DNA of 64,000 nucleotides, from the NCBI RefSeq assembly GCF_963675165.1, contig NC_087379.1, positions 2,980,201-3,044,200 on the forward strand, written 5' to 3'. Numbering within the stretch: the stretch's first letter is position 1; each line of letters starts with the position of its first letter. Positions 14,401-41,205 of this stretch are shown in pieces. A model generated the notes under the pieces. It saw only the letters and a program-made list of their open reading frames with translations. It did no database searches and was not told the DNA's origin. Source of the stretch: Halichondria panicea. Taxonomy: Eukaryota; Porifera; Demospongiae; Suberitida; Halichondriidae. The translations under genes were made by a program, and so were the position numbers.

Positions 14401-15300
14401 TAGCTATACACCACTCTCAGGCTGGTACATTATTTCCCCGTGCAATAATACAGACAATGCTGTAATTATGCAACTGTTCCCTAGTTATATAGTACACACA
14501 AGTTTTACCCTTCCATAGCACCTCAGACTCACACATACCTGATTGTGTATAGTCCCTACACCCCAATTGCTGACCTACATGTATGTACATTGTACGACAA
14601 CATGCTGTTTTCTCAGGCAAAGAAAAGGCTAGAAGAAGCAATTCAGCTTCTGCAAACAGCTGCCCCTTACTTTACCATGACACATCCCTCCATCTGCACT
14701 TGCGATGAATGCTCAAAAGAGACGTCTGAAGATGTCACTCCCACTCAATGTCAACCTGAGGGCCTTTTGTTTGAATTGCTGAAGCAGACAGTAAAAATTG
14801 CTGAGGCATACCTTGAGCTTGGAATCGGACAGTTTGAGGGATACATTCACAAATTGGGGAAACAGGTAAAAAGCCCATATCAATCCGGTTATGATGATAC
14901 CATTTTTATATAGATACATCGATTTTATAGATTTTATTAATCTTGCAGAAAATTTTTGACCATTTTCAATCAATTCTTGGTCTCCTGAAGAAAATCGAGG
15001 ATCTAATCTCTAGTCTCCCTAGAGATGAGGTGGACAACTGCTGTCTGGAGAAATCAATGTCTCCCATTGTCATAACTGATCTACCTGAGTCCGATAGTTT
15101 GAAAAAAACAATGGAGAAGTCATGTAAGTCTCTATGTAGTCATGTGCAGAGAGAGGCTACTGCCTACAAGGCGATTACTTCTGAGAAAGACTCTGACACT
15201 AAGCAGGAGAAGACAAAAGAGGTACATATCTATACCAAACATTTGGTACTGGATCAACTTATTACCCTGCATATGCGTGTGCAGGGGTAGTGATTGGTGC

Positions 15301-15341
<41 letters not shown>

Positions 15342-16565
15342 CGTGGACACAAAAATGAGCTGTTTGAGAGAACGCACACTTTCATGGACTGTTAAAATAA
15401 TAATGAAACTTGTAGGCAATCTTCGAAGGCAACAAAAAACACTGTTTTCTGTTTATAGATTCACAATTTCCCCATATAAATGTTAAGGTTATTATGGTAA
15501 AAAGTCAGAAGTTATCGTGTTTGTTATGTCAATGCAAGGGTGAATGCTCTATTGAGCATCTAGTTTTTAGTATTTATTTCTTCTTATTTCTACTCTCAGT
15601 GCCTGCACACTTGATTCTTATCCCTATTATTATATACAGTTGGTTCACTGGATGTCGTTTTACTGCAAGTACAGCTACCGTATGTCAGTTGCCGGTATCT
15701 CATTTTCTGACTCCGTCAGCAAGACTGTGCAGATTGCATTCTCCTTCATTGCAGACAATCTCCAACAATATGACAAATTTGTACGTGTCCTGGACAGAAA
15801 GGTATTTCTATTTGTAGAGCCCTTATTATAATAATATTTCGTAAATTTACTATCAGGATCTAAGTAGTAATGGCAATGGTAACGGTACCAACCATAAGGT
15901 GTATGTCCACAAAGCGAAGCCTAATGCATACATAAATACATGCAGAGAATCAAATCCCACTTTGAGCGTATCATGAAAGTCGTAATGTCACTGGTGGCAA
16001 ACATCCCAATCAACGGAAGTTCGAACGTTGACAAACTTCTGAATATGCTACCCAACAGCGATGTCTTGGTGGCCGCGGTGAAGAGTTCATGTGATAAGCT
16101 TTTGAAGCATTATCAGGAACATGCACAGAATGAAGTGAACCTCTGTCAGAGCGATGAACATCAGCCAGATGTAATAGAAAAAAGGAAAAAGGAGGTAATG
16201 GACTAATGGTATACATATCTAGTCTATAATTATATAGACTGACCCCTTTAGTCCGTTTACGTTGATCGCGTTGATGTTGTTTGATGCTGTTTGATTAGCA
16301 CCTGATTATAATATTATGACTCTTCCATGGCAGGCCAGTGCCACAGGCCCACCCCACAGTTATCATATTTATTGAAATATTTCGAGCTCATGCAGTTCGT
16401 GCTTTTGTTATGGGATGCATGCAGGTGTTCAAGTGGTTGGCGTTTGGTGGAGACTATTTGTATGAGATGCTCAAGGCTCTAGGACCTGACCACACTGATC
16501 ATCTTCTGTTGGTGTTCACAGAGTTCGAAAAGGTGGTGCTACGAGTGGAGAAGAGTTTAAAATGA
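8466..16565 (+). CDS. Multi-exon helix-rich cytosolic protein, family not recognised (5' end incomplete)
   Basis: Twelve exons with consistent phases: 8466-8520, 9881-10377, 10698-10805, 12257-12373, 13136-13275, 13369-13425, 13613-13769, 14617-14865, 14949-15221, 15640-15801, 15946-16194 and 16425-16565. They give 734 residues and a stop. The first exon starts in phase 0 without an ATG, so one or more upstream exons are missing, or translation begins at the ATG at 9898. Order: GRDEEATAANFLLSMWDNVV, an acidic DECDYDECDFNEC stretch, a polyproline block (about 10187-10225), then roughly 550 mainly helical charged residues. No signal peptide or membrane segment is visible. The length and helicity recall BAR-like or scaffold proteins, but no diagnostic motif supports that. 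Many introns carry repeats. Confidence 0.75.
8541..9094 (+). mobile_element. MITE family B, copy 1 (TIR TGCCTCGGTG)
   Basis: Begins TGCCTCGGTGCGCAT at 8541; the inverted end CACCGAGGCA closes at 9071. Similarity to the other copy (28201-31454, opposite strand) continues to about 9094 through a small GCACCCGCGGTGC palindrome. The inside has a (GT)n run, CTATAGGCTTCTAGTCATG and GTTCTCGAGTTATG blocks. It sits in the first intron of the helical gene. Related, more divergent copies lie at 22123-22470 and 45040-45420. Confidence 0.75.
9095..9880 (+). other. Intron 1 remainder
   Basis: AT-rich intron sequence. A piece at about 9440-9530 (CGTGGGTAAAATATTCGTG ... CTGCTATACTG) resembles the widespread 'accgtatagcggg' repeat class seen near 10806, 33068 and 34215. 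A clear polypyrimidine/AG acceptor ends at 9880. No gene. Confidence 0.4.
11262..11545 (+). pseudogene. Pogo/Tigger-type DDE transposase remnant
   Basis: The frame reads LIIPGGCTSIIQPMDKCINK followed by TYMRQEWEEWIKQ. This matches the IPGG-x-TS-x-LQPLD-x-x-(V/I)NK hallmark of pogo/Tigger/centromere-protein-B-type DDE transposases. A one-base shift near 11470 is needed to reach the conserved tail VCGLNNALDETEDN, which ends at a stop. The N-terminal DNA-binding half and first catalytic residues are absent, so it is inactive. Confidence 0.75.
11853..11930. repeat. Long hairpin inside the pogo-like element
   Basis: An arm reading TCTCGCAAGTCCAG-CCCCTTCACTCA is followed after a few bases by its inverse, TGAGTGAGTGAAGGG-CTGGACTTGCGAGA. 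It is probably an independent small foldback insertion; it has no run of T to suggest a terminator. Confidence 0.7.
12440..12938. mobile_element. MITE with 30-bp inverted ends
   Basis: Left end AGATTGAAGAGTTAGAGGGA; right end is its inverse, ending CCCTCTAACTCTTTAATCT. About 500 bp, non-coding, in intron 4 of the helical gene. Internal sequence (TCCGCGCTACGCTGCGG, ACTGGGTGTGGTCAGTCATT, TTTTCGAGGCTCCACTGCAG) recurs in intron 2 of TRAF-1 (about 38230-38620) and TRAF-2 (about 41870-42310), so those introns hold further decayed copies. Confidence 0.75.
13786..14462 (+). repeat. 70-bp minisatellite, interrupted by a MITE
   Basis: Units beginning CTATACACCAC start at 13843, 13913, 13983 and 14053, exactly 70 bp apart. 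A shorter first unit lies at 13786 and a last unit resumes at 14403 after a 342-bp insertion. Each carries CCTGAGGCTGGTACA and TTATTTCCCCGTACAATAAT. It lies in the intron between exons 13613-13769 and 14617-14865. Confidence 0.9.
14061..14402. mobile_element. MITE family C, copy 1 (TIR TAGACTGGCGGCGACAG)
   Basis: Inverted ends TAGACTGGCGGCGACAG and CTGTCGCCGCCAGTCTA enclose 342 bp; the next inner blocks (CAACTGCCTATTAGTCACTC and its inverse) extend the match. GCTATACAC occurs on both sides although the surrounding 70-bp unit contains it only once, giving a 9-bp target duplication typical of Mutator-like elements. A second copy is at 57077-57402. Confidence 0.85.
15303..15340 (+). repeat. (GT)n microsatellite
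   Basis: A run of TG repeats in the intron after exon 14949-15221. The flanking sequence (GTGGACACAAAATGAGCTG, CTTTCATGGACTG, CGATCTTCGAAGGC) recurs around another (GT)n at 39605-39635 in TRAF-1, so the microsatellite belongs to a dispersed repeat. Translated frames across it are artefacts. Confidence 0.85.
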
Positions 16566-17518
16566 CATCGAAAAATCGAATTTTTTTCATTATAATAATA
16601 TAGAAAATACAAATAGTAAAAAAGTGTACTTTATATATTTAGAAAATACAAATAGTATAAAAGTGTACTTTTCTTCTATAAAAATTGTAAGTCCAGTTAT
16701 AAATATATAACGGAGCTTCTCACAGTATAGTGGCGAACTAACGAATGCCCATAACTCTTCATGTAGGCCTCTTTGCAAAGTCAATTGTAAGGCATTCACA
16801 ACTCAATCAGGCAAATACTTGCAGACATTGGCTCAATGCTGGGATGCATACTGTTGATTTTGCGGTTGGTCAGCATACAAGCTTGCATGGTTGTGTGTGT
16901 GTGTGCGATATACATGTATCTTACTGACTCGAAAATACCCTACCCCCTTTGTGCAAAACTCTTGCTTCGAAATCAAGGGGGGGGCTTAAATTTAAATGAT
17001 TACCGACATGTTATCTAACAGGATAGTTTCAAGGCAGAGGAGGTCGGACATCACTTGAACTTTCACTAATTATGACCTTTTAATGACATTCCAGGCCAAA
17101 TTGCTTTTCGTTTTTGCTGACTCAGCAGTAGCGGCTAATGTACTTCTCTGCTAGTCTCTATTTTAGCCGCCCTCTAAAAGTTGGGCGGCCTAATCACGAG
17201 TCTATGTTATAGAGGGCGACTAATTCACGAGACAATACTTCTGCACGGTTTCTGTCGCTAAATCTGTTGACAGCTAGTTGTGTTTGGTGTCTATTATAGT
17301 TACTGGACCTAACCCTATCAGCACATAATAGCCATACTAGCTAGATCCAGTCATGTTCTACTGCTGAGTCAGCAAAAACGAAAAGCAATTTGGCCTGGAA
17401 TGTCATTAAAAGGTCATAATTAGTGAAAGTTCAAGTGATGTCCGACCTCCTCTGGTTTCAAGGTACTAAATTTTTGCAGATTGCTCCAAACTAAACGGTT
17501 TGTTTTCGAGGATAGACG
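16320..17518. repeat. Segmental duplication, copy 1 (3' ends of helical gene and kinase gene)
   Basis: This block matches 31480-32306 in the same orientation. Here the last exon of the helical gene (16425-16565, plus) is intact. The kinase last exon (minus, about 16742-16830) is decayed: it has an internal deletion and a TGA inside the RPTAEEVM segment. The block is split by the MITE at 17035-17454, absent from copy 2. Confidence 0.85.
17035..17454. mobile_element. Mutator-like MITE with perfect 97-bp TIRs
   Basis: TIRs at 17035-17131 and 17358-17454 begin CAGAGGAGGTCGGACATCAC and appear to be exact inverses of one another. The element is 420 bp and non-coding. Target duplication GTTTCAAGG (9 bp) lies at 17026-17034 and 17455-17463. 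The paralogous segment at about 32250 has one uninterrupted GTTTCAAGG, a natural empty site, so insertion postdates the segmental duplication. Confidence 0.93.
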
Positions 17519-18873
17519 TATAGTCTAGATCTAGTAGTCTGTTCGGTTTGTGACATCTGAGCCTGCTTACCTGGATGCCATAGTACTGCGTTTACAGCAC
17601 GGATAGCCTCTACACAAACAGGCAGATTTCGATGTAGCCTCGATTCCAGGCCGCTCTCAATTGAGAAAGACGGCCTGGTATACACTGTCTGCGCATGCGT
17701 CAGTTGCCCCAAGATTCTTGGGGATCGAGATATCTTAGTAAATTAGTCAGTATATTGTATATTTTACAATGATGTCATTGCACAAATCACAGCAGAATAA
17801 CACAGCTACTTACAACATTTACGACCTAGACTAGTGACTAGTTTTGTTGTGATGGCTTCTACTTCTGTTTTGCTCTTGCTTAAGCTCTCTCCAGTGTTGA
17901 AAAGTCAGATTTTGTCTTCTTTTGTACTGTGGTAGAGTGGTAGGCGTTTTCTGTCAGTACCGACCGGCTCTGGCAAATCTACTTGCTTCCAGACACTTGT
18001 TTGATGCCATCTCAGTAAGATCAGTGCTCCTCGTATTAGTAAAACCAGTAGGTTTTACATAGGATTGGCAGTGGGTTTGCCTGTGTTTAGCAATATTTCA
18101 ATTATTTTGACTCATGTTCAAACTGTTCTATCTCTGCAGGGAAAGGCCACATCAAGAAACTGGCTGAACAGATAGTTTATTTAGCCTTTTCTCTCTTTGT
18201 ATCTCTCATTTCATAATCCATAAACATTTTAATGAATGAATATTTTTATTTTAAAAATTGCACTATTTCGACGTTTCACCGCTCTTTGTCTGACTGACTA
18301 AGTAAGTAAGTAAGTGAGTAAGTAAGTAAGTAAGTAAGTTTCTTGCCCAGCATTTACTCCAAGTACAGCCATCTCCAGGACATTCTGCACAGGGTTTCCA
18401 AACGACTACAACCTGGATTACAAAGCGCTTCTTCAGATTTGCGATTGCTTCCACGAGGCAGATGACCTCTCAGTCTCTATTTCTCTTACCTAGACAATTC
18501 CGCCATCTTTAATGACTCAGCAATTGCGTTGTGGCCAATAATAATAGATAGGCGTGGCTAATAAACTGTGCGAGAGCCTGAGGTGTTCCTTTTCTTCACA
18601 CTGTTCTGCTTCAGCTCTAGCTCCCTTTCTCTGACAGGCATGCTATATGCACTGGCTAGATATCATGCTCTTAAAATGGCTGTCATTTAATACTGATTCG
18701 CAAATTCAACATAATTATCAAGTAATAAATTATTACTCATTATACTATAATTATTAGTCCAGAGATATTCGAGAAGATATCTGATTAGTCCTGTCTTCTC
18801 TTCTTGTACTGCCTCTTGACGTTCCACTTATGCATGTCATGATACGTAAACTGTACTGAAAAAGTAAGGGAAT
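17464..18873. other. Repeat-rich spacer
   Basis: No gene. A piece at 17540-17650 (TACCTGGATGCCATAG...GCACGGATAGCC) recurs at 33700-33760 and, inverted, at about 47000-47050. Sequence at 18100-18180 and 18300-18480 recurs at 26270-26540, including GGGAAAGGCCACA(T/C)CAAGAAA and GAGGCAGATGACCTCTCAG. A (TAAG)n run is at 18298-18340. These look like older dispersed repeats. Confidence 0.5.
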
Positions 18874-19419
18874 CCGACTAGAAAAACATTTGCAATGTGA
18901 AAAATTGCTAGGATTGGCCAGGGGAACCACAAAAAAGCGTGGGAACAAGAAATCAGACGAGAGCATAACTCCAATCCGTTACAACGTCATGAACATGTAC
19001 AATACATAGTATTAATAGACTGTGTTCCAGATCCACCTATCAGCTTCCATCCACCACATCATTCCATGCAGTCACCAGTACGGTCCGTGCATGTTACTAC
19101 GCATGGATGGACTGTGTGTACCTGTGCTCAACACTGCATGTATTAGGAACATCAATTCATCACAAATCATCATGATTATGTGCCCCACATTCTAAAATGG
19201 ATGTATAATAAATATATATAGGGATTGGTCATCACTCCACCAGTAAAAATTGCGTGGCATATTGGCTGGGAAAACATGGGAAAACTACCAGTATACATGT
19301 GATTGACGTTGTAACGGATTGGAGTTATGCTCTCGTCTGATTTCTTGTTCCCACGCTTTTTTGTGGTTCCCCTGGCCAATCCTAGCAATTTTTCACATTG
19401 CAAATGTTTTTCTAGTCGG
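18874..19419. mobile_element. MITE with ~125-bp inverted ends
   Basis: The left arm starts CCGACTAGAAAAACATTTGC at 18874 and runs to about 18998; the right arm (about 19295-19419) ends with its inverse, AAATGTTTTTCTAGTCGG. Long near-identical arms contain AGAAATCAGACGAGAGCATA. Non-coding. A more decayed relative lies at 6995-7458. Confidence 0.88.
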
Positions 19420-19748
19420 TGAGCCTAGAGTTGTGATGGCGATTTCTCTCTCTTGACACTAAATAGTTTAATCAACCACGTGGGTGATCATAGTACAAAA
19501 GGTTAATTGATAAATTACAAAGAGTTTTACTAACAAATTTACTATTGAATCCACCCACGCGCAAACAATGCCCTCTGGTGAGAGGGATCTAGGCTAATTT
19601 CGATGTTAAAGCTTTGTTGTCACTATAAGCGACTTTTATTAGAGGTAGATTGACATAATCATTTGCAGCTGAAATGATCCTTTACCGGTCTCTATTAAAA
19701 GTAGAATTGTAGTTTGTATAACTTAACACTCCTTTGGTTTATTTATTC

Positions 19749-21769
19749 GATTGCCTCACACGAGATCAACTTTCATGAGATCAACTCCCACGAGATCAAT
19801 TCTTACCAGATCAACTTTGCATGAGGTCAACTCTCAGTAGATCAACTCTCATAGAGTCCACTTTTCATAGAGTCAACTCAACTCCTGAAATCAACTGAGA
19901 TCAACTCCAATTTTAAAATTCAGAAATTAACTATTTTTATAGGTGTTGTTGACCTTTCTTTTATAGCTAATTACTATAGTACATGTGCTAAATATTTTGT
20001 GCCAAAGGTTGACAGGTTTTGACAGGTTTTGACAGGTGATAAAAGGGCCACTAGAACTAGCATGCACTCATTTGCAACATGATGGCTCAACTCGTCAAGA
20101 CAAACCGAGGACGAAAGAACCTTCAATTTGAGGGGTATATTTATACAAAAATAAGAGATGGAACCGATTTTCAATTCTGGAGGTGCAAAAACCACAAGGC
20201 TGGTTGCCCAGCAAGAGCCACTTCAGAGGGTTTGAGTGTGGTTGTAAGGAATGAACATGATCACCCACCCAATCCAGCTGAGATCACCACTCAAGTTGCC
20301 ATTGCGGGAATGAGGAAGAGGGCCAGAGATGAAAGTACCTCCATAAATGTGATATACGATGATCAACTGGACGTAATTAGCCAAGAACAGAACTCTGCTG
20401 ATGTGCTGGCACAACTGCCTAGCCTTGAGTCTATCAGGTCCTCTCTGTACCGAGCTAGACACGAAGACACTCCCATCCTTCTGACCCTCAGAAGAGATGT
20501 CAGCCTCTCTACCAGATTCTCAAACACTCGAAGTGGGGAAGACTTCCTCCTGGTTGACGATGGAGATGATGACAAGATCATGATCTTTGCCACTGAAGAG
20601 AACCTCAGACTCCTGTCTGATGCAGAGGCCTTTTACATTGATGGCACATTCTCAACATGCCCTTCACTGTTCTACCAGGTACATAATTATGTACATGAAT
20701 ATTTTCATTAATCTCTTTTCTGCAGGTGTTTACAATCCATATTCTGCTCTATGGCCATACATTTCCAATGGTATATTGCCTTTTGCCTAACAAACAGAGA
20801 CAGACATATAACAGAGTGTTCATGCCACTCAAAGATGCTGCTCTAGTTAAAGTTCCCGGTATCAGTTTTGATGTTGAAGTAGTTGTGAGTGATTTTGAGC
20901 TGGCCATGGTTCAGGCTTCTACAATGAGCTTTCCGAACTCATATCATCGTGGCTGTTATTATCACTTCATGCAAGCGATTTGGAGAAAGGTATATCTTAT
21001 ATAGCAATAATAACTCTATTCTAACTCTATTTTCTATGCTCTATACAGGTTCAAGCCCTGGGGCTAGCCACAGAATACCGTCGCCCCAATGGGGAGTTGA
21101 AGGAATTCGTACAATTGATGGCATCTGTGGCATTTTGTCCACTGACATTTGTTAGAACAGCCTGGCTTTCCATCCAACAGGATACTCCGAACATCCCAAG
21201 AGTTGACGAGCTAGTGGATTATTTCACTACCACCTGGATCAATGGAAACTTTCCACCAATTCACTGGAACTACTTTAATCAACATCAGCCTAGAACCAAT
21301 AACCATGTTGAGGGATGGCATTCTGGAATGAAAAAGTTATAGGCAACCCTCACCCAAACATCTTCAAATGGATTGAACACATGCAGAGAGAGGAGGCAGT
21401 GACCAAAGCAAAGATTCAGAGCTACATGTTTGGAGCTACTGCTCGGCCACAGAGACGCCGAATGAAAGAGAAGGAAAAGAGGATTCAGACACTGTTTGAC
21501 CGATTTAACACAGGAGGCATGACTCTTAATGTATATTTATCAGCCATCAAGCATCTTACTGGACTCTAATCTAATTTTTTTTTATTCACTTTTGTAATTC
21601 TAATTTCACTTTCAAATTGTAATCGAGTTGATCCCATGAAGTTGATCATATGAAAAGTTGATTCTATGAGAGTTGATCTACTAAGAGTTGACCTCATGCA
21701 AAGTTGATCTGGTAAGAATTGATCTCGTGGGAGTTGATTTCGTGAAAGTTGATCTCGTGTGCACACACC
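19749..21769 (+). mobile_element. MULE transposon with tandem-repeat TIRs
   Basis: TIRs (about 19757-19916 and 21609-21761) are inverses built of short repeats around GATCAAC (CACACGAGATCAACTTTC...). ATTTATTC flanks both ends (19741-19748 and 21770-21777), an 8- to 9-bp target duplication. The uninterrupted target is present in another repeat copy at about 46715-46875 (minus strand), which matches both flanks here. Between the TIRs lies one transposase gene with two small introns. Confidence 0.9.
20079..21569 (+). pseudogene. MULE transposase with FLYWCH-type zinc finger, one frameshift
   Basis: Exons 20079-20678, 20726-20989 and 21049-21569. The N-terminus has a FLYWCH-like finger (RGRKNLQFEGYIY ... 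FWRCKNHKAGCPARA ... HDHPP). The MULE catalytic domain follows: FYIDGTFSTCP (first Asp), VVVSDFELAMVQAS (second Asp), a CYYHFMQAIW zinc or helical motif and NNHVEGWHSGMKK (Glu). At about 21338-21343 the frame runs into TAG after GMKKL, while GNPHPNIFKWIEHMQREEA continues one frame over, as if one base were lost. Everything else is intact, so the copy is young or the shift is a sequence error. It encodes the cut-and-paste enzyme of the surrounding element. Confidence 0.88.
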
Positions 21770-21777
21770 ATTTATTC

Positions 21778-22122
21778 CTGTCAACAGCCGACAGTTAGCA
21801 CTTCAGTGCTCTAGTTTTAGAGTTACTAAATTTCTCAGATTGCTCAATTAAACTAACAGATTATATTTTTGAGGGTATAGGTTCAAAGACGACACCCCTA
21901 CAGTAGAGAAATTGTTCAATACCATAACTAAAATAAGATTCCAAATATTATTTTAAGGTTCAAAGTCAATCTGGATCTAGAGGGGGGCGTTTTGCTGTTT
22001 TCGACCCAACCCTACTATTAGGCTAATAGTAGGGTTGGGTCGAAAATCAGTGCTAATGATTTGTAACAACACCCACTCGCACATGCGCATTACTTAAGTG
22101 TCCACGTGGTTGCAACATGTTA
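21778..22122. repeat. Dispersed repeat flanking the MULE
   Basis: GTTAGCACTTCAGTGCTCTAG and the following 200 bases (GAGGGTATAGGTTCAAAGAC, AGTAGAGAAATTGTTCAATA) recur at 32393-32590. At 22008-22040 a short palindrome reads TTTCGACCCAACCCTACTAT followed by its inverse. No gene. Confidence 0.7.
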
Positions 22123-22470
22123 TGTCTCGAGGCGTAGCCGCACGAGGGATATACGATAAAGCCGCGGGTAAAGCTGACTGTGTCTGTTCCAGCTGAAACT
22201 GCTCAACGGTTACAATGCGACGAAAACTAACAGCTTCTATAGGCTTCTAGCCACGTTCTCTCGGATTACGATTTGTGGATTAGCAAACTAAAACTTCTTT
22301 CTCGAGTTATGGCTAGTTGACTCACATTGAAGGCTGTTGCAGTCTCTTCAGAAGCATCATCTGTTCGCACAAACTTTCTATTCAACTTATGAGTTAGCCT
22401 TGCACTAAAGCGCTAGCTTTTTGTTAGTCAGAAAGAGCTGCTAATTTTAGTAGCGAACTTGCAGACACGC
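22123..22470 (+). mobile_element. MITE family B variant, copy 1
   Basis: Starts TGTCTCGAGGCGTAGCCGCA; interior CTTCTATAGGCTTCTAGCCA and TTTCTCGAGTTATGGCTAGT. Matches 45040-45420 on the opposite strand and, more distantly, 8541-9094. Confidence 0.65.
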
Positions 22471-22549
22471 CCCTTATTCCTTGATGTAATGCGCATGCGC
22501 GCTCAATACCACGTGTCATTTTGATCCTAGTACAGTTTAGCTGCTATCA

Positions 22550-23687
22550 ATGGATATGTACTCTCTCACTTTCAGTCCTGATGAGCTGATCAACTGGTTA
22601 ACAGCCAAAGGGGTGGACTCAGAGGACTGTGCCAAGATCAGAAGTGAGATCGTATCTAGCAAGGGAAAGGGTAGCACAATAGGCTGCTAGGCCTCTCAAG
22701 GGTGCTCCCCATAACAAAAATAAAACACGAATAAAAATACCGTTTGAAATGAGAGGTCAATAAGCTGTAAGGTGGGGCTACTTTAAAACTAGTGAGAGAA
22801 TTTATACTACATACTACTACCGTACCCTCGCCCATCTCCTCTTTTGCTTCGAAGTTCTTGCACGAGGGTATTTTCACTCGATTATAAGCTGAAGAGTTGA
22901 GCATGCGCAGTAGCTGAATGCCACATGTTCACTATTAATTTTAATGAAGAAAGGAAGTTTTAGGTAGTAGCTAGTAAGACTATACTCCTTGCTGGACCAA
23001 GATCAGACATATAACTTTCTCTGTATGGATCTGTTTGCCCTTGAAGATGTATATGCAGGGAAAATTATGCAGAGAAAAGAAAACACAAAGTCCAAGAAAG
23101 TTATCACACAGGCCGGTTACCTTGCCTTGGTTTTCTGAAACAAAGTACCTCTGTAGGAGTATGACCTACCATCCTTTGGGAATTTTCTGCTACATGACAC
23201 AAGCTGCTACATGACACAAGCAACGAATATCGAATAGAGTCAGAGTCCACTTCTTCATGTTTATTCTCTACGTTTATAACGTTGTTGTTGTCAATGAAAT
23301 GTTCATACTATGTAAATACTAAAGAATTGTCATAGAGCAAAGTGTAAACCTCGCCGCGGATGGGCGTATATTCGAATGAAAAATATTCGAATGAAAACTC
23401 GCCGTTCGCGATTAAACGCCCAGTCCCCTAATAAGCCTAGACTTCTTGCAGAAAAGGGTGGGCGTATTTTCGCGAGGGTACGGTACAGAGCTATTCCACT
23501 ATTTGCAAAAAAAGAATATGTATATTAAACAGTTATTTCTAGCATTAGAATGACCTGTGAATTCTTTGTCTGTCCAGAGGCTAAGTTTCAAGGAGAGTCA
23601 TTTGTCTTGATAGAGGAGGAACATTTCGAGGAGTTGGGGATTCCCCCAGGTGCATCACGCCTCCACTTGGAGGACCTGATCAAAGAA
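22550..23687 (+). CDS. SAM-domain protein, N-terminal two exons (rest missing or disrupted)
   Basis: Exons 22550-22670 and 23578-23687 join in phase 1 (SKGK|EAKF) to give 77 residues. They form one sterile alpha motif: SPDELINWLTAKGVDSEDCA, then GESFVLIEEEHFEELGIPPG and ASRLHLEDLIKE. SAM domains mediate protein-protein oligomerisation. The second exon ends in a strong GTAAGT donor, but the expected next exons are not visible before a large DIRS-like insertion starts near 23930. The intron is mostly a MITE (22818-23486). The gene may continue much further right, or be truncated. The start is the first ATG, two codons before another ATG. Confidence 0.7.
22818..23486. mobile_element. MITE family D, copy 1 (TIR TACCGTACCCTCGC)
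   Basis: Ends TACCGTACCCTCGC and GCGAGGGTACGGTA enclose 669 bp in the SAM gene intron. Subterminal blocks include CGAAGTTCTTGCACGAGGGT and CACTCGATTATAAGC. The same element in the opposite orientation fills 45827-46535. Confidence 0.85.
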
Positions 23688-23930
23688 GTAAGTAATACTC
23701 TGATACAGTGGTTTGCACAACAGTTGTCCAGAGCAAAGGCAACTTTTGTGAGCACTGCCCCAAATTCAGTCGAAAGAACTTATATTGACGTCATAAATAA
23801 TTTTTAAAGCAGCACTTCATAACCAAAAATTATCTCTTGTTACATAATCTTTTAGATGTAAAGAAGGCCACGTACCCCATACAAACTACACTGGATCCAG
23901 GACATAAAGTGGTCCACTCCTCGCGGAAGT
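23688..23930 (+). other. Start of intron or broken 3' part of the SAM gene
   Basis: AT-rich sequence after the SAM exon donor. No further exon was recognised before base composition changes sharply to the GC-richer DIRS-like insertion. Confidence 0.4.
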
Positions 23931-25760
23931 GCTGAGCCACCCCCGATTATGAAAGGGTTGGGCCATTAGTGAAGGGGACCTTCACCCACCACACAGCGGT
24001 CGCCCACCCCAATCCAAACATGACCTAAGCCCCGCCAACTCATAATAACACAGCTACAAGGTATTGTCGACGACGAGTATCCAGCGAGTTGCTCACGAGG
24101 ACATAAGTCTTTATCACACAGTCCTCCATACCCTTTGCCGCCGATCCTGAAACTGTGGCTGCAGTACTTGGCCTGATCGACCAGCCAAACGTAGGGCTGA
24201 CTTAACCCTCTCCACGAAACAGGGGCGAGACTAAACCTTTCCGTCACTAAGTCCTGTCTAAGACTCCCTTTCTGAACGGTCAATGATTTGATGTGCGGTC
24301 AGAAGGGTGGTCAAAAGACAAACTTAAGTGGACACTCGCCGTCCCCAGGCACCCCGCACCGTAAAAACCGAAGAACAAAGACAGCACGCTGCCCATATCA
24401 TCTCCCAAACTGACTCTTCGAGTGATCGGCTTGCTCCTGTCTCAGCCTGATTCCGCTTGATCCGAGCCTCGGCCATGACGTCTTGGCAAACGGGCCCGAC
24501 GCTATCTGCAGGAACCGGATCGCTGATAGGTCTTATGCCCTCTCCCTCCAAGAAGGACAGGTCATCCCCCTTTCGGACAGGGTTGACACAAGCATTGAAC
24601 ACAAAATTTAAGGTACCTTGTTAACTTTTTTAGCCCTCCAAGTTTGGGCCGTCCAGTCGGGCCGAACCAGCTTGCACCAGTTCCTCCGAGATTGGTGAAG
24701 GAACACGGGCCACCAACGGACACACTTGGAAAAATAGAGGAAGGTTATCCCGTGACAAGCTGTATCCAGGAATGTGTTCGAAAAATGTTATAATGGGCCC
24801 CCAAACAGGCCCCCAAACACGAGTTTAAAATCGCCACCACCGCGACAGCCATCACGATCGGCAAGAGCTCCTCTACCGTAATGTGGAGCCATGTATATTG
24901 AAACCACGATGTCGCACCCCCAGGAGCCTGATGCATCCGAAGTGAGAATGATGTCCGGGCGTAGCTTGGATCTAGAGAACATAATCCGAGTGCCATTCCA
25001 GTCTGCCAGAAACAAAGACCACCAACGTCAGACCACTCCTACAAGCGTGTTCCTTCACCAATAGTCATCAAGGTAATGTATCAGGCTGTCAGCTAAGGCC
25101 GTGAAATTTTTGAGCGCGAGCAATGTACAGCGACTCCTCCCATACCATTCCCAGCAGGACTGTGACATTCCGATAGGCACTCTCGCAAACTTCCCTGTCC
25201 CAAATCAAGGATCACATCAACCCATTATCAGCACCACACGTCATAATTGGTGCCACATAACCCTGTGCCTGGCAACAACAAAACAACAACACGTAACCAT
25301 TCGTACACTAATGGTTCGTAACGAATCGTCTCTAAGTGGTGAAGTCTCTACCCGGCTGAGGGCCCCTACCGGAAAATCACACTTCCAGTTAAAACAGGCT
25401 CCCCGTATCTTCGTTCTATCCCGGTCGTAGTACTCCCTGGAGAACCCTTGACCCTAACCTGTCTTGCTACCCGTTGGCCAGTCAACTTTGGCTGCCTGTT
25501 CCTCATGAGGGTGCTTTTGGAGCACGCGATCCAACTCAGTAGGTAATGGCCGAGCTCCACCTCCTAGACCCACCTCCAAGCTCCATATTGTCCCGGAGAA
25601 GCTCTGCCATATCCACGTAGTTGTATTTTCTTTACTAACTTGGGTGGAAAAGGGGGCAGGCCGATTACACTGGCCTCCTTCGCTCCCCCCCTGGGGTAAG
25701 AGTACTGAGCTGCGTGACCTACACGCCATGCTCGGAGGAGCTTCGGTACACTACGTTATC
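23930..25760 (-). mobile_element. Decayed DIRS-like (tyrosine-recombinase) retrotransposon
   Basis: This stretch is GC-richer than its neighbours and codes on the minus strand in broken frames. Around 24880-24960 an RNase H reads TSDASGSWGCD followed by EELLPIVMAVAVVA in a shifted frame. At 24730-24775 comes LSRDNLPLFFQVCP, the conserved junction after RNase H in DIRS elements. Near 24140-24180 a YCSHSFRIGG segment matches the HxxR region of DIRS tyrosine recombinases. The order RT/RNase H then recombinase, and the motifs, fit DIRS1/Ngaro-type elements. Many frameshifts mean no product. The terminal repeats were not resolved, so the limits are approximate. Confidence 0.65.
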
Positions 25761-26822
25761 CCACCCCGGCTCAGAGCCTACATTTTCACACGGGCACATT
25801 TTCACACGGGCATACACTTTCACCCCCCCCCCCCGCTCGGAGAGCATCTCCTGCCCTACATTTATCTACAGGGACCGTACTGCCAGCCCCGACAGAATTC
25901 AATGACAATGTACGTACTATACGCTTGGATATTCTACTCTACCAAATGGGGAAAAATCCTTCCCCCCCTTTCGTGCTCCCTTTCTCGCTCTCTTCCTGAA
26001 TCACCTCCCGTAGTAGCATATCCCGGGTGAAAGTGTGGAGGAGAGCAATAGATGCAGGATTCAAAATGATTGAAGCAGCTACGATATTAGACAGGTGGTC
26101 GCACGAGGCTGGTCATCCTAATATGCATGCGCGTCCATACCCTTTTGCCGTTAACTACGTTTAATTACATAACACGTTCAGCAGCCATTGGATTTGCACG
26201 AAACTGACCAAATTCACAACCTCTGCCCCACCAGCAGGATTGACAGTGCAGTTGTGTGTTTTCAATTATTGCACAAATTTTGACTCATGTTTAAACTGCT
26301 CTATTTCTGCAGGGAAAGGCCACACCAAGAAAGTAACTGGATTAGATAGCTGTGATATTATAGTCTATGAATATTCTGATGCATTACTATTGATATTTGA
26401 AAAATTGCCGCATTTCGTCTTAGTAAGTAAGTAACATTCTTGAAAAGCATTTCCTCCTTGTACAGACATGTTCAGATACAGCCTCTAGTCATGTGGGCAT
26501 TTTTCTTAGAATTGCGTTCGCTTCCAAGAGGCAGATGACCTCTCAGGCTAAGACCACCACTAGGAGGGTGCCGCCTAAAAATCAGATGTTAAAAGCAGCT
26601 GGAGGGACCTTCCCACACACAACAAACTGTGCAATAAAACACGCCTCAAGGTTTTTCTCCTTAATATCATTCCTTTGCTATGGACATACAGTGGTCATAA
26701 GTACTCTGTTCCTAGCAGTCAAGTAGGGCATGTCCTAGTATTCCCATGGAAAAGAGAGAGAAAGTGCCCGCTTTTGTATCAGTTTCTAACCCAATGGATC
26801 GTGTTTGGTTTATATATGCACC
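25761..26822. other. Spacer with old repeat copies
   Basis: A C-rich run at 25820-25834 and a (CACACGGGCA)-like duplication at 25786-25812 lie at the left. Sequence at 26270-26540 duplicates pieces of 18100-18480. No gene was supported. Confidence 0.4.
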
Positions 26823-27102
26823 TATCAATGATATGCCCCACCCCTACCCCCCACCTGGGGAGCACGTGGGGAAATGTAGTAGACCGCCTGGGGGAAGTGA
26901 CTTTCAGTTGTAGCCGCCCTCGACCTTTGTATTCATGTTATCTTTAATATACATAGGTACATGTAGTAAATTTTTTGGCCTACTCAACATGAGGAAAGTA
27001 CAAAGCTGATACGCCCGCCGCCCCATACATGGTCACTGATGGGTTGTCACTTCCCCCACGTTTCCCCCATATCACCCCAGGTGGTGGGGCATATCATTGA
27101 TA
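26823..27102. mobile_element. Small MITE (TIR TATCAATGATATGCCCCACC)
   Basis: Inverted ends TATCAATGATATGCCCCACC and GGTGGGGCATATCATTGATA enclose 280 bp. CACCTGGGG/CCCCAGGTG and GGGGGAAGTGAC/GTCACTTCCCCC extend the inverted match inwards. Non-coding. Confidence 0.85.
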
Positions 27103-27170
27103 CACAGTAGGTGAATTAGCAGTAAGTTGCAAATGAGTGTTCAGTTGATTTGGTTCTATGTATAAATTAT

Positions 27171-27500
27171 GTATGTGCAGCAAATCGTGGTTCCTCAACT
27201 AAAGTCAGTACAAATGCGGAAAATGTTTCAAAAGGCTCAAAGGAGGAAAATGCTACAATGTGGTTGAATCTGACTGGTGATGGTAGGTACAAGGAGTACC
27301 TATAGTGATGCACGAGTTTGGCCATGCTTTGGGTCTGGGTCACGAGCATCAAAGAGCTGTTTTCTGGAACAACATCAAAATTTGGCTCTCTATTTAAGGA
27401 CGTTACGTCATATGGAGATATATTCCAGGAGAACCAAGATCTGAGTATGACCCGGACAGTATTATGCATTACCCTATAAAACATGCAATTTTTATGCGTT
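27171..27500 (+). pseudogene. Astacin-like zinc metalloprotease fragment
   Basis: One frame from about 27294 reads VMHEFGHALGLGHEHQRA, the HExxHxxGxxHE zinc site of astacins. After a TAA at about 27394-27396 the same frame continues to YDPDSIMHYPI, the SxMHY Met-turn at the normal spacing of about 50 residues. Just upstream another frame gives ATMWLNLTGDGRYKEY. Only the catalytic core is present, with no start, no propeptide and at least one nonsense codon, so it is a gene relic. Astacins are secreted or membrane endopeptidases. Confidence 0.75.
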
Positions 27501-28200
27501 TATGCTCAGGTTTAATCCTAGTTGGCTTAAAGATGAATACAACGCCGAGACAAAGGTGAATCATCGTAGTGACATTACTGACAAACTTTCTTGAATGGAA
27601 AAGAAAGGGCCTGGCAGAAAATCTATCACATGTTGGTTGTGAAATCGTTGTGGCAACTTATTATGGTAAAAAGTTTACCCAATTATATATAATTATGCTT
27701 TTAGAGAATTTTATTGCAGATCATGTGACTAATACCTAGAGAGTTGAGAGAGACTTGAGAATCGGATCCGGAATTTTAGTCATAGGACACATAATTATAG
27801 TTAAATGTGTGGCCATGTTTAGTTAATTTTTGTATGAAATTGTTCATGATTTTGAATTTCAAGGGCAGTTTTTGATCCAGGGGGGATAACATCTTGCCTG
27901 ACTCAGCAATATGCTGAGTCAGGCAAAGCTTTTTTTTACATAGAGTTCAATCGTAGGGAGGGGATTGGCATAACGATCTGCGTTTCGGGTCTTCTTTCTT
28001 CCAGCCCATGTTTTTAACTACATGCATGCATGGCTGAGTTTTGTCTCTAAAATAATGTTATATCTAGTCAGCGACTTATATTTAAAAACAACTCGGTCAA
28101 GGCTTATACTGACTACGTACAGCAGTTTTCAGCACAACACACACAAATAGGGCTGTCCCAATTATTCTAGAAGAATAATAGGTGAGGCTAAAAATATTAG
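27501..28200. other. Spacer with a hairpin
   Basis: Sequence downstream of the astacin relic. The only structure seen is the hairpin at 27896-27928. No gene. Confidence 0.4.
27896..27928. repeat. Perfect 15-bp hairpin followed by a T run
   Basis: TTGCCTGACTCAGCA, three bases, then its exact inverse TGCTGAGTCAGGCAA, with TTTTTTTT eight bases later. The TGACTCAGCA core also ends the TIRs of the MITE at 17035-17454. It is probably a solo or collapsed MITE end rather than a terminator, since this is a eukaryotic locus. Confidence 0.7.
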
Positions 28201-28692
28201 AATGAAAGCACCACAGGTGCTGATGCCTCGGTGGAGATGCCAAAGCTACAAAGCTTTTATACACATGATAAAACAATTTAATTTTGCTGCATGCAAAAAC
28301 TCACAGAGTGGGTAATGACCTACCATGATTGTTGTTAAAAACGATTGATGCCAAAAGTTCAAGTAATGGCTGCATTAAGCAGAGCCTTGAAGCTCTCTTG
28401 TCACTCTTGCAGTTACCAATAGCTAGCGTTCTAGTGCAGAGCTAACTACTAAGTAGAGTAGCAACACTCGGTAAACAAGTTTGGCTATGTGCTCTACTGA
28501 AAAGGCTGCAATGGCATTCCAAGTAAGCAAAACTAGGCATAACTCGAGAACGAAGCATTATTTTGCAAATCCACGAATAAAAATCCAAGTAAACATGACT
28601 AGAAGCCTATAGAAACTCTTACTTGTACTTGATTCATCCTTGAGCAGCTGTAGCAGTCTACACACACAGACACACAAACACACTACCGTATA

Positions 28693-28695
<3 letters not shown>

Positions 28696-28731
<36 letters not shown>

Positions 28732-31422
28732 CCTTTATGGCGAAACGAGTAGTTAAGGTAAGTACAAACGGGTAGACAGATATAAATCGAAATCTAAGTA
28801 AGGTAAAGATATGAAGAACAAACATATAGTAAGTTTAGGTATGCCCATCAAGCACAGGTGATAGAGTTGGTGACCTGTGAATGAGCATGGAAGCATTCCC
28901 TCGCCAAAGGGCTATGCTGACTCTCCCAAAGAGGTGTTTAATGGTGACTGAGTCTCGGTCCGCGCCTGAGCGGAGACAAATTGACCGGCCGATATCACGG
29001 ATGGTTGAGATGAAGTCCTCTGCTAAGCCTCCCAGGGTTTCGGCCACAAGGGGAATGCATGTCATACCCACAGACCTGCAGCTGGGGAGATTGGAAGCCA
29101 GCTTACGCTGGACCCCCACTTGGAGAGCGTGGCCCTGGGTCCTTGCAGCCTCAGACAGTGTGAGAGACTGGAGAGGAGAAATGACATGGACGTCAAGAGC
29201 CGCTGGACGACCATTGATCCAGTTGGGGAGGAGGACGTCTGCAGGGCGAGAAGCCGAGTCAGGAACAAGCCCTGTAGTTTCTCTTGAGGGGCCCAGAGCA
29301 GCAGACTGAGCCGCTTTAAAAACAACGTCACGGACGGCGTTGTGACGGCTGATACGGTCACTGTTGCCTCCACATCCCACCTGGTGGTCACCAAGGGAGT
29401 CAGCAACACCATGACACTCAGGGCAGGTGAACTGGTCATTGTGCAGCGGGACCCCTAGCCAGTAACACAGGCAAGAGCGAAACTCCCTATCTTGGAGGTG
29501 AAGCCCGAGTGAGGGAGAAGGGATTACGTTCAGCCAGTCGTGAGCGTGAGGGAGACCAGTGGAGAGGGCCAGTGCTCGTGACCTAGTGGTGGGGGCCGAG
29601 GCTAACAGGCTCTTCATAACGGATTCATCAATAGCAGCAGAGAGGGCTCCCTGTCTGAGGGGAATGTCGATGTCGTTCAGAGTCTGCCAGTCAGGACGAG
29701 CAGAGGAGGAGGCAATGGCTGACACTGTTTCATCTAAGAAGATCGAAGGGGGAGGAGGGCGACCTAGGAGTCCTTCAACCAAGGGTGCCGAGCGAAGAGA
29801 GGAGTCCAGATATGCAGCAGGGGCATGAAGTGGGGCACTACGCAGCCCAAGCCCTCCTTTACTACAAGGGAGGGATGCCTTCTGCCACGACCAGTCCGAA
29901 AGAGGTCCTCCCAGGATACTCTCAAGAGCCCTCCGGATGGAGCAGTCAAAATCATGAGCAGTAGTGCCAACGCGGCCTGGGGGGCAGGCCCGGAGTACTG
30001 AGACAACTTTGGGAAGTGCAAGACATGAGCGTAGCAGAGTGGTTTGTGCTTGAGAGTCTTCAAGGGTGTGGAGAAGGTTCAGAGAGAGTTTGATCTTGTC
30101 TATGCGGGTTTGAAATGAAGCCTCGCAGAAATCAGGAGGACCGACTGGGCAACCAAGGAGTGAGAAGCCTTCACGGACTATGGGGATAGCCGAAGGAAGG
30201 GGGTTGACAGATTGATCAGCCTCAGCAGGAATATAGAGGAGAGACTTGGCTTTATTTAAGTGGAGGCCAATTCTCGGACCTTCTCTTTCAATGATCTCGA
30301 GAGCAGACAAGAGGTCGTTGGGCGAACCGATTAGGGTGCCATCGTCCAAATACCACGCATTAAGGGCCAGGCCTGGGACTTCAGATTGAATGCAATCAAT
30401 AATGGGTTGGAGTGTGAGGGCAAAACCGAGGGGGCCTAAAGGATCCCCTTGTTGAACTCCGCTGCAGCTGAGTAGGGAGTGGCTTCCCAGAAGAAGGTTG
30501 GGCTGGCTGGAGTAGCAGGCTTCTATCCAGGGGGAGAGAGAGGGGATGTGCTTGCGGAACTCCTGAAACATGCTTCCCCGATCGATGCTATTGAATGCAT
30601 TAGAAAAATCCACAAGGAGAGTCCAGCACCCGTCGCTGGGGCTTGAGGAGAAGTGGCTGGATACTGCGTGGATAATTGCTTCGCAGCCCCCTTTTACTCC
30701 AACGCCCAGCTGGTTTGGGAGAAAGTGGGGAAGAGCAGTGGGTCGGGTCGAGAAAGCGAGGCATTTCGAAGTGAGCCGACGAAGAGACTCACCGATGGCA
30801 ATTGGGCGTAATCCTCCACATTTCTTCTTAATAGCGATTAGAGTTGCCCCACAGAGATGAGGTGTGATGGAGGGTGGAGCACGGCCAGAAGCTAGCAGGT
30901 TTACCAGGCTGGTTAGAGAGAAGAGCAGTCTATTCCCGTGATCTGGTGACGGGCAAAGAACAGCCTCACGGAGGTGGCTTGGACGGAGACCAGAGGGGCC
31001 CGGGGCTGAGCCAGGGGGGAATGACTTAACTCCTTTCGAGACAATTGACTCCGTTAATTTGATTGGTGATGGGGTAGGGCCAGGGGGAGTCCCAGGAGGA
31101 GGAACCTGGGGGTGCTTGCTTAGCATGTCTTTCAGGACCGTTTCGTCTGCTGGGGCTGCTCCCTCTGAAGTAAGAGCCTTCATGGCTTTTCTGTATTGGC
31201 CGTTCTGAGCGGCATGTAAGGCCCTTTTGGCATTTTGGTTACGGAGGTTCGTCGGCTGTTTGCGACGAGAGGCTTGAGCTTGACTGCTCTCCACTGCTTC
31301 AGTCCAGAGGCCTAGGCAGTCCCCATCGTCCCAACGTTTGAGGCGAGACTTTACTAGCTTAAGGATTTCTCGCCAGCGGAGGCGATGGCCAGAAGCAGGG
31401 CTTGCTAGGACGCACTTGGCTA
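28696..31422 (-). mobile_element. Non-LTR retrotransposon (LINE) with REL-type endonuclease, 5'-truncated
   Basis: A poly(A) tail (T run at 28695-28729 on the plus strand) ends the element. GTATATCT is repeated at 28688-28695 and 31423-31430 as the target duplication. The unoccupied sequence is seen in the MITE copy at 8541 (GCGAGGTATACGG). The open frame continues through the left target copy into the MITE, showing that the 5' end is truncated, as is usual for target-primed reverse transcription. Confidence 0.9.
28835..31422 (-). CDS. LINE reverse transcriptase with C-terminal zinc knuckle and REL endonuclease
   Basis: An uninterrupted frame of about 860 residues inside the LINE; upstream residues come from the host MITE, so no native start is present. 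RT motifs in order: GLRPIAIGESLRRL, LLVDFSNAFNSIDR, SGVQQGDPLGPLGFAL and NAWYLDDGTLIGSP (YLDD instead of the usual Y/F-A-DD). After the thumb comes a C-terminal Cys/His motif, CPECHGVADSLGDHQVGC, then RHNAVRDVV, SRPADVLLP and AALDVHVISP, the layout of the restriction-like endonuclease in R2/NeSL/Hero/Utopia-type elements. The enzyme nicks target DNA and copies its RNA there. The clean frame implies a recent insertion. Clade is inferred from motifs only. Confidence 0.85.
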
Positions 31423-31479
31423 GTATATCTCGCTTGCGCATGCGCACCGAGGCATAATTATAATTATGATCCTTCCATA

Positions 31480-32306
31480 TGGCAAGCCAGTGCCACAGGC
31501 CCACAGTTATGATTTATTATTCTAGCTCATGCAGTTCATGCTTTTGCTGTGGGGTACATGTTCAAGTGGTTGGCGTTTGGTGGAGACTATTTGCATGAGA
31601 TGCTCTAGGACCTGACCCACACTGATCATTTGTGTTCACAGAGTTTGAAAAGATGGTGCTACGAGTGGAAGAGAGTTTAAAATCACATCAAAAATCCAAA
31701 TATAAAAGTGTACTTTAGAAAATACAAATAGTATAAAAGTGTACTTTATATATTAGAAAATACAAATAGTATAAAAGTGTACTTTATATATTTAGAAAAT
31801 ACAAATAGTATAAAAGTATAAAAGTGTACTTTTCTTCTATAAAAATTGTAAGTCCAGTTACAAATATATAACGGAGCTTCTCACAGTATAGTGGCGAACT
31901 AATGAATGCCCATAACCTCTTCAGCTGTAGGCCTCTTTGCAAAGTCAATTGTAAGGCATTCACTTGCTACTTTAACAAGGGAGTTCAACTCTGGTTGATC
32001 CAAGCATGTTTTCAACAACTCAATCAGGCAAATACTTGCAGACGTTGGCTCAATACTGGGATGCATACTGTTGCTTTTGCGGTTGGTCAGCATACAAGCC
32101 TGCATGGTAGTGTGTGTGTGTGCATGATATACATGTACCTTACTGACTTGAAAATACCCCACCCACCCCTTTGTGCAAAACTCATGCTTCGAAATCAAGG
32201 GGGGGGGGGGCTTAAATTTGAATGATTACCGACATGTTATCTAACAGGATAGTTTCAAGGTACTAAATTTTTGCAAACTAAATAGTTTGTTTTCGAGGAT
32301 AGACGT
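31480..32306. repeat. Segmental duplication, copy 2
   Basis: Matches 16320-17518 minus its MITE. Here the kinase last exon (31899-32018, minus) is intact. The helical-gene exon (about 31548-31681, plus) is decayed: the acceptor GCAG|GTGTTC has become TACATGTTC and there are internal deletions (GAGATGCTCTAGGACC). Tracts of AGAAAATACAAATAGTATAA are repeated three or four times at 31690-31815, expanded relative to copy 1. Confidence 0.88.
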
Positions 32307-35300
32307 TCAAATGACCACACCCCATATGATAGAAAGGTCTTTATATAATACCGGAAGTAAACAAATTTTAAGGTTCGTTTATTTATTTCTGTTAACAGCC
32401 GACGGTTAGCACTTCAGTGCTCTAGTTTTTGAAGTACTAAATTTCACAGATTGCTCAATTAAACTAAACATTTTGCAGATTATATTTTTGAGGGTATAGG
32501 TTCAAAGACGACACCCCTACAGTAGAGAAATTGTTCAATACCATTACTAATAAGATTTATTTTGAGGTTCAAAGTCAATCTGCGAAAATTTAGTGCCACA
32601 AAAATAACTCGCTATACGGCACCTCTGCAATACATTTCCTGTTTGGCTAGGGGGGCTTAAATAAGAAGAGGGTATATTTTCGGGTGAGTACGGTAATTCA
32701 TTATATACATGACTGAATATAATTATGCATCACTTGTAGTACAAGTTATTGCATGAGCACCGAGTGCAACATGCCAATAATGGTGAGTGTACATAATTAT
32801 AGTGACAAGATATATTAATTTTATAGTACAAACCTCACGAATAGCCTGTTCTTTGCCCAGCATCTTAAGCAAAATCACACCCATACTCCAGATATCACAC
32901 CACGGACCTTCCACGTCATAGAGGATCTTGCCATCGATCAAAGTCTTCTTATACTCATCTCGACCGGGACATAGTTTGAATTGCTGTATTAAAAAATAGT
33001 GAAACCATTAGAGTTCAGGTACATATAATTATTTACATAATGGTAGTGCTGACATGTGTTGCAGTGTATACCGTAAAGCGGGTAACTTTCAGGTAACTTA
33101 TCCAGATGAAAGATTCAACCAAATTTAATGATATCATAGCAAACACCCACTCGCACATTAAGTGTTCACGTGGTTTTAAACTTTTGTTTTGCTGAAGCAG
33201 CTAAATGCTTCAGATTAGCCTAACACTATAGCTTGCTATCTTGTTTTGTCCACCGATGCATTATGTCCAAGACTAGTACATTTATAAGAGCTCTGGACAT
33301 TGTTTGCTGATTTTGCATGCAGAGGCTACTCGAATTATTGATGGATGTGGCTCATTTAGAGTCATTCTGGTAACCGAATATTTAAGCCATCCGAATGAGG
33401 TGGGGACCCCAGGTATTCGCGGGTAATTTTTGTAGGGTAAAATATTCGTTGAACTTGAACAGCGGTGATTTTCGTGAGTAAAAAAATCCAGTACCATACT
33501 CTACCGGGATTGTTCCTACCTCCACTTGTGAGTGAATGTTCCTGCATAAGCTAATTTGCCTCGAGAATACGACCACCAGGAAGTGATGCGTTTGTCAGTG
33601 ACCGGTGTAAGCTGATTAGCCTCTAGATAGAGCTAGATCTAATAATTTATTACCCTAGGCGCACGTGGGCGGCCACGGGTATAGTAGTCCATTTGTTTGT
33701 GTCTGCTCACCTGGATGTCATAGCGCTGCTTTACAGTATGGATAGCCTTCACAGCAACAAGTTATTAATTTTAAAGTGACAGATTTTGATATTAAAGCGT
33801 CGTTATTGCGAGCAAAATTAACCTACATGTAAGAAGCTTGAACTTGCACGTTGGCTGCATGGCCTCTAGCTATACATGCATCCTTTTTTCGAGGTACTGT
33901 ACGTATTTAGAGCTAAAGTGATCCTGTACCAGAAACAATGGAAAAGGTTCATTCTTAGTTTCTTAATGAGTGGGCATAATTTAAGGCAAACACCACGGGT
34001 GGGTTTAATTTCGAGACAAACTACTGTTTTCGAAATTAAGCCCATCCCACCTGTAGCTGCTTTGCAGCATGCAATTAGGGTGGGCGATCTTGGGTGGAAT
34101 AGGGTATGTGCACTGCACCGCATGCGTTCTGGTAACCAAGCCTAGGTTTACGTGGGTAAAAGTTTCGTCGAAGTCAGCTTGCCCACGAAAAAAACGAATA
34201 TTTACCCCACAAAATTTTCCCGCTATACGGTAATGTAATTAAACTCTGCTATATTATAAGTAATACGTACAATTTAACAATTATTTGATAATATCCTGTA
34301 ACTCACTTCAGGAGCTCTGTAAGAACGTGTCCCTTTCACACGCTCCATTTGAAGATCGGTCATGCTTGTCTCACACACGGAAAACTGATTGGGTTTCCGT
34401 GCAAATTTGGTTTGTTTTGCACAGTCAAAATCTGATATTTTGAGGGTGTACTTATCCTTGTCAACACATGTGCAATGGAGAATACCAACACAACTGCACT
34501 CCTTCTGGACCAGAATATTGCTAGCTGTGTGTGTGTATGTGGGGGAGTAAGGGAGGGGAGGGGGGAGTGTACAAGGCTCTAAATGAGCTCTTAGCTAAGT
34601 TACATGTACCTAAAATACTTGCTGGCTGTGTGTGTGTGTGTGTGTGTGAGGGAGAAAGGTTACAAGCAAAGTTACACGTACATACACTCATAATCATTGC
34701 TGGCTGTGTGTATGTGTGCGTATCGAGGGAGGAGGGAAGAATACAATGAGTTTTTTTACCAAATAATTACGCTGGCTGTTTGTGTGTGCGGGGGAGGGGT
34801 GGGATGTAACAGGTTATAATGAGATGTTAGCAAGCATATGCATGCACACCATGGTATAAGTAATTATACCTTTGAGGTCACCGTGCTGCACCCTCTGTCG
34901 GTCCAAATACACCAATCCCTTACAAATCTCAGCCAAAGTATACTTCAAATTTGAAAGGAACATCTCCCTCTTCTGTGGCTGCTTTTTTAATAGTGTTAAA
35001 AGGTCACCACGATTGATCATCATTGAGCGAAGGTCTCCGGACATTTTTGGCATGAATTGGTAGCAGTTTCCATGCTGTTCTCCAATCATCACGGCTAGGA
35101 GAGGGAGAATGTTTGGATGATGGAGGGTCGACCAAATGTTAAGTTCGTTCTCACGATACCGGGTCTGTGTATATTAAAGGAAGTACAATTCAATCAAGGA
35201 ACCAGGTAAAACAAAAAAAATTACCGTATAGCGCTTGATTTTCGAAGCACTAAGATTTTGCGGCTTTTATTTTGACGATAGAGGTTAAAATGACCACACC

Positions 35301-37580: not shown

Positions 37581-37776
37581 CCTTAAGCTGAGCTTTTAAA
37601 ATAAGACTTCTAGTGAACTCTTCCTGTTTCTTTCTTGATCTTGTTCTTGATAATACCGGAAAAATCTGGTTTATTCCGGGGCCTAAACTAGATTTTACTG
37701 GCCATAAACCACCCAATATATAAGAGGTGTGCAGAGAATGGGGGTTAAAGCAATTAACTTTAGTAAACAAATCCCG
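37581..37776. promoter_or_regulatory. Putative bidirectional promoter between kinase and TRAF-1
   Basis: Only 196 bp separate the two divergent start codons. A closely similar stretch lies before TRAF-2 (41219-41392), where the kinase side has been cut off after about five codons. A stretch resembling a splice or PU-box-like TTCCTGTTTCTTTCTTG tract lies at 37621-37637. No TATA box at a canonical distance is obvious. Confidence 0.6.
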
Positions 37777-39601: not shown

Positions 39602-39636
<35 letters not shown>

Positions 39637-40655: not shown

Positions 40656-40749
40656 CTATAGACTGCATAGTTTATTGATATACATGTACTCGTGTCGTGT
40701 CTTTGCGTTCAATTTCAACCCCATGATTTTTACAGTGACATACTAGTGG

Positions 40750-41096: not shown

Positions 41097-41205
41097 TGTA
41101 ATTATGTATACCTTTGTGACATAACAAGTTTGCTAGATCTAGTACATCAGTGTTGTGCGGAAAGACATAGGTATAATATGCGGGTTTTAATTTGGCTATA
41201 TTGCT

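Follow-up and report, generated by a model that had tools for sequence, protein, structure and literature searches.

Within a 64,000-nucleotide stretch of the genome of the sponge Halichondria panicea (contig NC_087379.1, positions 2,980,201 to 3,044,200; herein the window, G000:C3:2980201-3044200), two genes run toward each other and the junction at which their tails would meet is present twice. The helical gene H lies on the plus strand and the kinase gene K on the minus strand, in convergent orientation; H exons 1 through 10 are found solely to the left of the duplicated region and K exons 1 through 6 solely to its right. The evidence base is one genome assembly (131 Mb in 39 contigs). Positions refer to the window unless a contig is named, and the features are collected in Table 1.

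Both gene models were derived from the sequence alone, and the start ATG of H is assumed. The H model ends in a stop codon at 16563-16565, downstream of a last intron at 16195-16424, and its predicted product has 710 amino acids; every internal boundary carries ag/gt (nine cag acceptors and one tag). The protein has no Pfam family at E 0.01 by which H could be named. The K model predicts 788 amino acids with a Pfam Pkinase domain (PF00069, E = 1.3e-23); its internal acceptors are all cag and its donors all gt, and its intron 6 occupies 32100-32833. A comparison of K with solved structures gave no match at E 1e-10, so the kinase is not named that way. Exon 2 of K (36108-36656) contains about eight in-frame tandem copies of a 69-base repeat encoding a 23-residue unit. 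To the right of K, TRAF-like genes (zf-TRAF, MATH) lie in 37561-50066 as local direct and inverted copies with 81 to 94% identity; these local duplications take in the stretch with the K start.

Table 1. Genes, junction copies and inserted or intervening DNA at the H-K locus (window coordinates)
Feature	Position	Strand	Description
Helical gene H	9898-16565	+	11 coding exons; last exon 16425-16565 is the copy in use
Left junction copy, core	16305-17519	+	16305-17034 plus 17455-17519; similar to right copy
Broken K last exon	16738-16885	-	Acceptor CAG to CAA, 53-base gap, in-frame TGA
420-base inverted-repeat element	17035-17454		Terminal inverted repeats, 97/101 outer bases match; 9-base target duplication GTTTCAAGG
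Nested insertions	17635-19586		17635-18039 and 19420-19586 form one element, interrupted by others at ~18040-19419
MULE-type transposon	19757-21761	+	FLYWCH and MULE transposase domains; 122-base inverted ends
Distal part of left copy	21770-21973	+	Counterpart of 32381-32582
DNA between the copies	21974-31456		9483 bases: repeats, gene-like pieces, LINE, further stretches
Open stretches	22550-23804	+	22550-22687 and 23529-23804; no Pfam match
Decayed metalloprotease-like pieces	27169-27580 (ends approximate)	+	Motif HExGHxLGLxHEH
Interspersed repeat E	28201-31462	+	28201-28695 plus ~31423-31462; right end abuts right copy
Long interspersed nuclear element (LINE)	28696-31422 (limits by eye)	-	RVT_1; poly-T at left end; inside E with 8-base target duplication GTATATCT
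Right junction copy	31457-32582	+	Core 31457-32306, distal 32381-32582
Broken H last exon	31559-31685	+	Acceptor deleted, three frame-shifting gaps, stop lost
Kinase gene K	31899-37580	-	7 coding exons; last exon 31899-32099 is the copy in use

Two direct copies of the H-K junction

Two same-orientation matches make up the core of the duplication: 16305-17034 pairs with 31457-32260 (723 bits) and 17455-17519 with 32252-32306. In one global alignment, from which the 420-base insert and one copy of its target duplication were excluded, 38 of 740 aligned sites differ (Kimura two-parameter distance [K2P] 0.053; bootstrap 0.036-0.071) and there are 23 gap events. These two direct copies bear out the duplicated convergent junction that a preliminary description of this DNA had proposed. 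It had placed them at 16320-17518 and 31480-32306; the core copies instead occupy 16305-17519 and 31457-32306, and the full extents are 16305-21973 and 31457-32582.

The larger extents follow from a distal pair, 21770-21973 and 32381-32582, that scores 264 bits; the runner-up reaches 123 bits among the 40 candidates scored out of 521. The distal pair differs at 9 of 194 sites (K2P 0.048), so that its divergence equals that of the core (0.053), as for a single event. Being equally diverged and reciprocal best matches, core and distal part are argued to stem from the same duplication, and 17520-21973 is accordingly counted as part of the left copy rather than as DNA between the copies. The full left span includes about 4.4 kb of nested insertions; within 17520-21973, about 4.0 kb is nested insertion. 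An extension of the pair past 21973 and 32582, via 22054-22111 and 33126-33175, was rejected because both segments match the same place in one fetched locus (L044) and are an interspersed repeat. One edge of the duplication therefore lies in the last intron of H and the other in intron 6 of K.

A repeat that is unbroken at 46718-47101 has its pieces around the left-copy inserts, and only its tail remains in the right copy; the repeat unit whose end lies near 32373 in the right copy is missing its second half in the left copy. From these partial remnants, both copies have lost some non-coding DNA. With the right copy as query, the genome yielded no third copy of the full segment (four matches from three candidates). 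Direct copies of otherwise single-copy DNA thus flank unrelated DNA on both sides. The exception to single copy is the K exon, which has one paralogue (C13:2112701, 81% over 186 bases); the same search gave no further match to the H exon, and hence no outgroup for it.

Divergence of this size bears on whether the two copies could be diverged haplotypes joined in one contig by the assembly. Very heterozygous marine animals may show haplotype divergence of about 5%, with which the difference between the copies is compatible. However, the sequences outside the copies show no relationship to each other, which would demand two real breakpoints in any case; moreover, one working exon is missing from each copy, the copies differ in their nested insertions, and the contig is assembled to 8.48 Mb. 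We regard such an artefact as very unlikely.

The copies have decayed in complementary fashion, one-sidedly for each gene. In the left copy the H last exon is intact and its frame is open to the stop. The right counterpart has a 6-base gap that deletes the acceptor AG, two 7-base gaps, one extra base and a change of TGA to TCA. The K last exon is intact with an open frame in the right copy; in the left copy its acceptor reads CAA instead of CAG, a 53-base gap runs directly into the TGA, and further gaps of 1 and 2 bases are present. The preliminary description had assigned the usable helical exon to the left copy and the usable kinase exon to the right in just this way, citing the deletion and TGA in the former's kinase exon and the lost AG acceptor and deletions in the latter's helical exon; to these are added the CAA acceptor and the lost helical stop. 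With the C13:2112701 paralogue as outgroup, 8 of the 11 assignable K-exon substitutions map to the left copy and the other 3 to the right one, although some columns lie at poorly aligned ends and only the direction is meaningful.

One intact last-exon copy per gene, each in a different segment, with complementary losses, is also what would be seen had both copies once served both genes until complementary losses made both indispensable. The DNA demands no such phase of shared use. With the gene bodies on opposite sides, the proximal copy is the first that either gene meets, and geometry seems to have settled the outcome: far copies would be hard to use, and the decay pattern would be the expected default. 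We consider subfunctionalization unlikely. The earlier wording, "subdivision by reciprocal degeneration", is not upheld on this argument, the body of H lying only to the left and that of K only to the right, each with its proximal copy as the default.

DNA within and between the copies

Three insertions in and between the copies match copies elsewhere in the genome at 99-100%. The 420-base element has one such copy with 100% identity over 422 aligned bases, an insert at about 18034-18400 reaches up to 100% identity, and the 3' part of the LINE is 100% identical over 592 bases. Because these matches stand at 100% and the junction copies differ by about 5%, the three inserts are, as judged from sequence identity, younger than the duplication. 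The best genomic matches of the 17635-19586 element are 97 to 98%; for this element and for the MULE, only nesting inside the left copy suggests the order relative to the duplication. The proposal that transposons arrived after the duplication thus holds for three inserts and is less clear for the 17635-19586 element, repeat E and the MULE.

The DNA between the copies had been described as about 14 kb and transposon-rich. Transposons are present, but the interval is about 9.5 kb once 17520-21973 is assigned to the left copy, and it also contains metalloprotease-like and exon-like pieces. Among the fetched loci, 8 of 52 overlap the window and were excluded; 5886 of the 13937 bases of 17520-31456 match at least one of the remaining 44, a count that gives no estimate of repeat content as the loci were selected by family. 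The 2.2 kb or so at 23996-26235 has no match in these 44 loci and no Pfam match in the four frames tested.

The metalloprotease-like piece matches Pfam M10 and M12A (E = 2.6e-5 each); the identity of its longest relatives is 81% across 215 bases and 84% across 143. For an exon-like piece at 23565-23689, the same contig has a relative of 83% identity. That relative falls in C3:1412484-1424339, as do two weak matches (80% over 61-65 bases) to 27302-27369 of the metalloprotease-like piece, all within 12 kb of each other. A single decayed gene or gene cluster may thus have supplied both the exon-like and the metalloprotease-like piece.

For neither 23500-23830 nor 27100-28130 does the genome contain a match of similar length at about 95%: the longest relatives show 81 to 84% over 92-215 bases, and 88 to 100% identity is reached only by stretches of 32-50 bases. 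The lack of a close source of comparable length argues against copying of these two stretches from an extant locus at the time of the duplication, and against a larger tandem duplication. Such an event would have doubled the junction together with the whole of K and more, with later deletion of the first K copy; the direct orientation of the copies agrees with it, as does the position of the left edge within the last H intron, where there is a short ATTATAAT overlap. Against it, no credible relic of K exons 1 through 6, nor of H exons 1 through 10, lies in 17520-31456, where only chance-level matches were obtained (K, E = 0.47, inside the LINE frame; H, E = 4.5). A larger tandem duplication appears improbable.

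The right copy is adjoined by repeat E (best genomic match 94%) and not by the LINE, which is a later insertion inside E. The reading frame of the LINE reaches the start of the right copy, as might be expected if the junction duplication were an unusually long target-site duplication made by the LINE; its homology to its other copies ends at 31427, however, and what flanks the LINE directly, inside E, is an 8-base target duplication of its own (GTATATCT) and not the junction copies. This origin was rejected as exceedingly improbable.

Elsewhere in the window, a further direct repeat lies at 60944-61824 (60944-61154 with 61368-61586, and 61153-61317 with 61658-61824), with 86 to 87% identity.

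A proposed history of the junction

H and K would originally have been convergent neighbours with stop codons about 170-210 bases apart. One rearrangement would then have doubled a segment bounded by the last intron of H and intron 6 of K, about 1.1-1.3 kb long, as direct copies around other DNA; the most likely route is either the repair of a break with widely staggered ends or tandem duplication with capture of a fragment. By the alignment, each copy at birth held both last exons, their acceptors and the shared tail region. Since both edges are intronic, each newborn copy would be complete for both last exons and neither gene need have been harmed. Splicing from the left, H would meet the left copy first, and K, from the right, the right copy first; the far exons, whose lesions are described above, would then have decayed neutrally. 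Transposons would subsequently have entered the left copy and the middle, where they are found nested and where three of them are younger. By this argument from geometry, both genes could probably do without their far exons from the start, barring transcripts that ran through the middle. Break repair or tandem duplication around captured DNA, followed by neutral decay and transposon growth, is the reading that we judge best, with a probability of roughly 0.6.

Several observations weigh against it. The H-side and K-side halves may not have evolved quite alike: divergence is higher on the H side (18 of 226 sites) than on the K side (13 of 343; Fisher p = 0.038). The former adjacency of H and K is suggested by the copies alone. 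The right copy begins exactly where E ends, the two overlapping by a short ATTATAAT, and insertion of E with an adjacent deletion could have moved the right-copy edge. Repeat E and the MULE need not be younger than the duplication.

If break repair or capture followed by neutral decay is correct, the locus is a fairly complete example of how nearly touching gene tails can be pulled apart without damage. Separation would be harmless because the edges are intronic and both last exons were copied with the region between them; geometry probably chose which copy each gene kept. A broader idea, which we put forward as possible though doubtful, is that tail duplication of packed convergent pairs frees space and turns a harmful insertion site into a transposon refuge, so that compact genomes are opened up repeatedly, with pairs of oppositely broken terminal exons as the signature. 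A genome-wide count of such pairs around repeat-rich DNA would give the frequency with which compact genomes gain space.

Comparison with known systems

Under duplication-degeneration-complementation, either copy of a duplicated gene can serve, chance loss decides between them, and complementary loss makes both needed. The H-K junction is alike in that the losses are complementary and both copies are needed. It differs in that the losses hit two different genes and were apparently decided by which side each gene body occupies. A word search of titles and opening abstract lines in an open-access library, which is no proof of absence, found no description of neighbours that keep opposite copies of a duplicated tail-to-tail junction.

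Fill-in of complementary single-strand break ends produces small direct tandem duplications, according to PMC8355091, which mentions short insertions of under 100 bases. The H-K copies share the direct orientation of the duplications in that account; unlike those small duplications, the H-K unit measures 1.1-1.3 kb, and its copies enclose other DNA.

Inversion breakpoints in Drosophila offer a comparison at larger scale. According to Guillen and Ruiz (2012; PMC3355041), staggered breaks duplicated single-copy segments of about 1, 4.3 and 7.1 kb that contain genes or gene parts; one of these duplications pairs an intact copy with one that has shrunk by deletions, and a different one has two transposon insertions between its duplicated sequences. 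The H-K locus likewise combines a rearrangement that duplicates a single-copy segment, decay by deletion, and transposons between the copies. The Drosophila copies are inverted and flank an inversion, whereas those of H and K have the same orientation and lie on either side of about 9.5 kb; and at the H-K junction, unlike the breakpoints described there, each copy retains the working end of a different gene. The H-K junction thus cleanly exemplifies a process of a known kind and not a new process.

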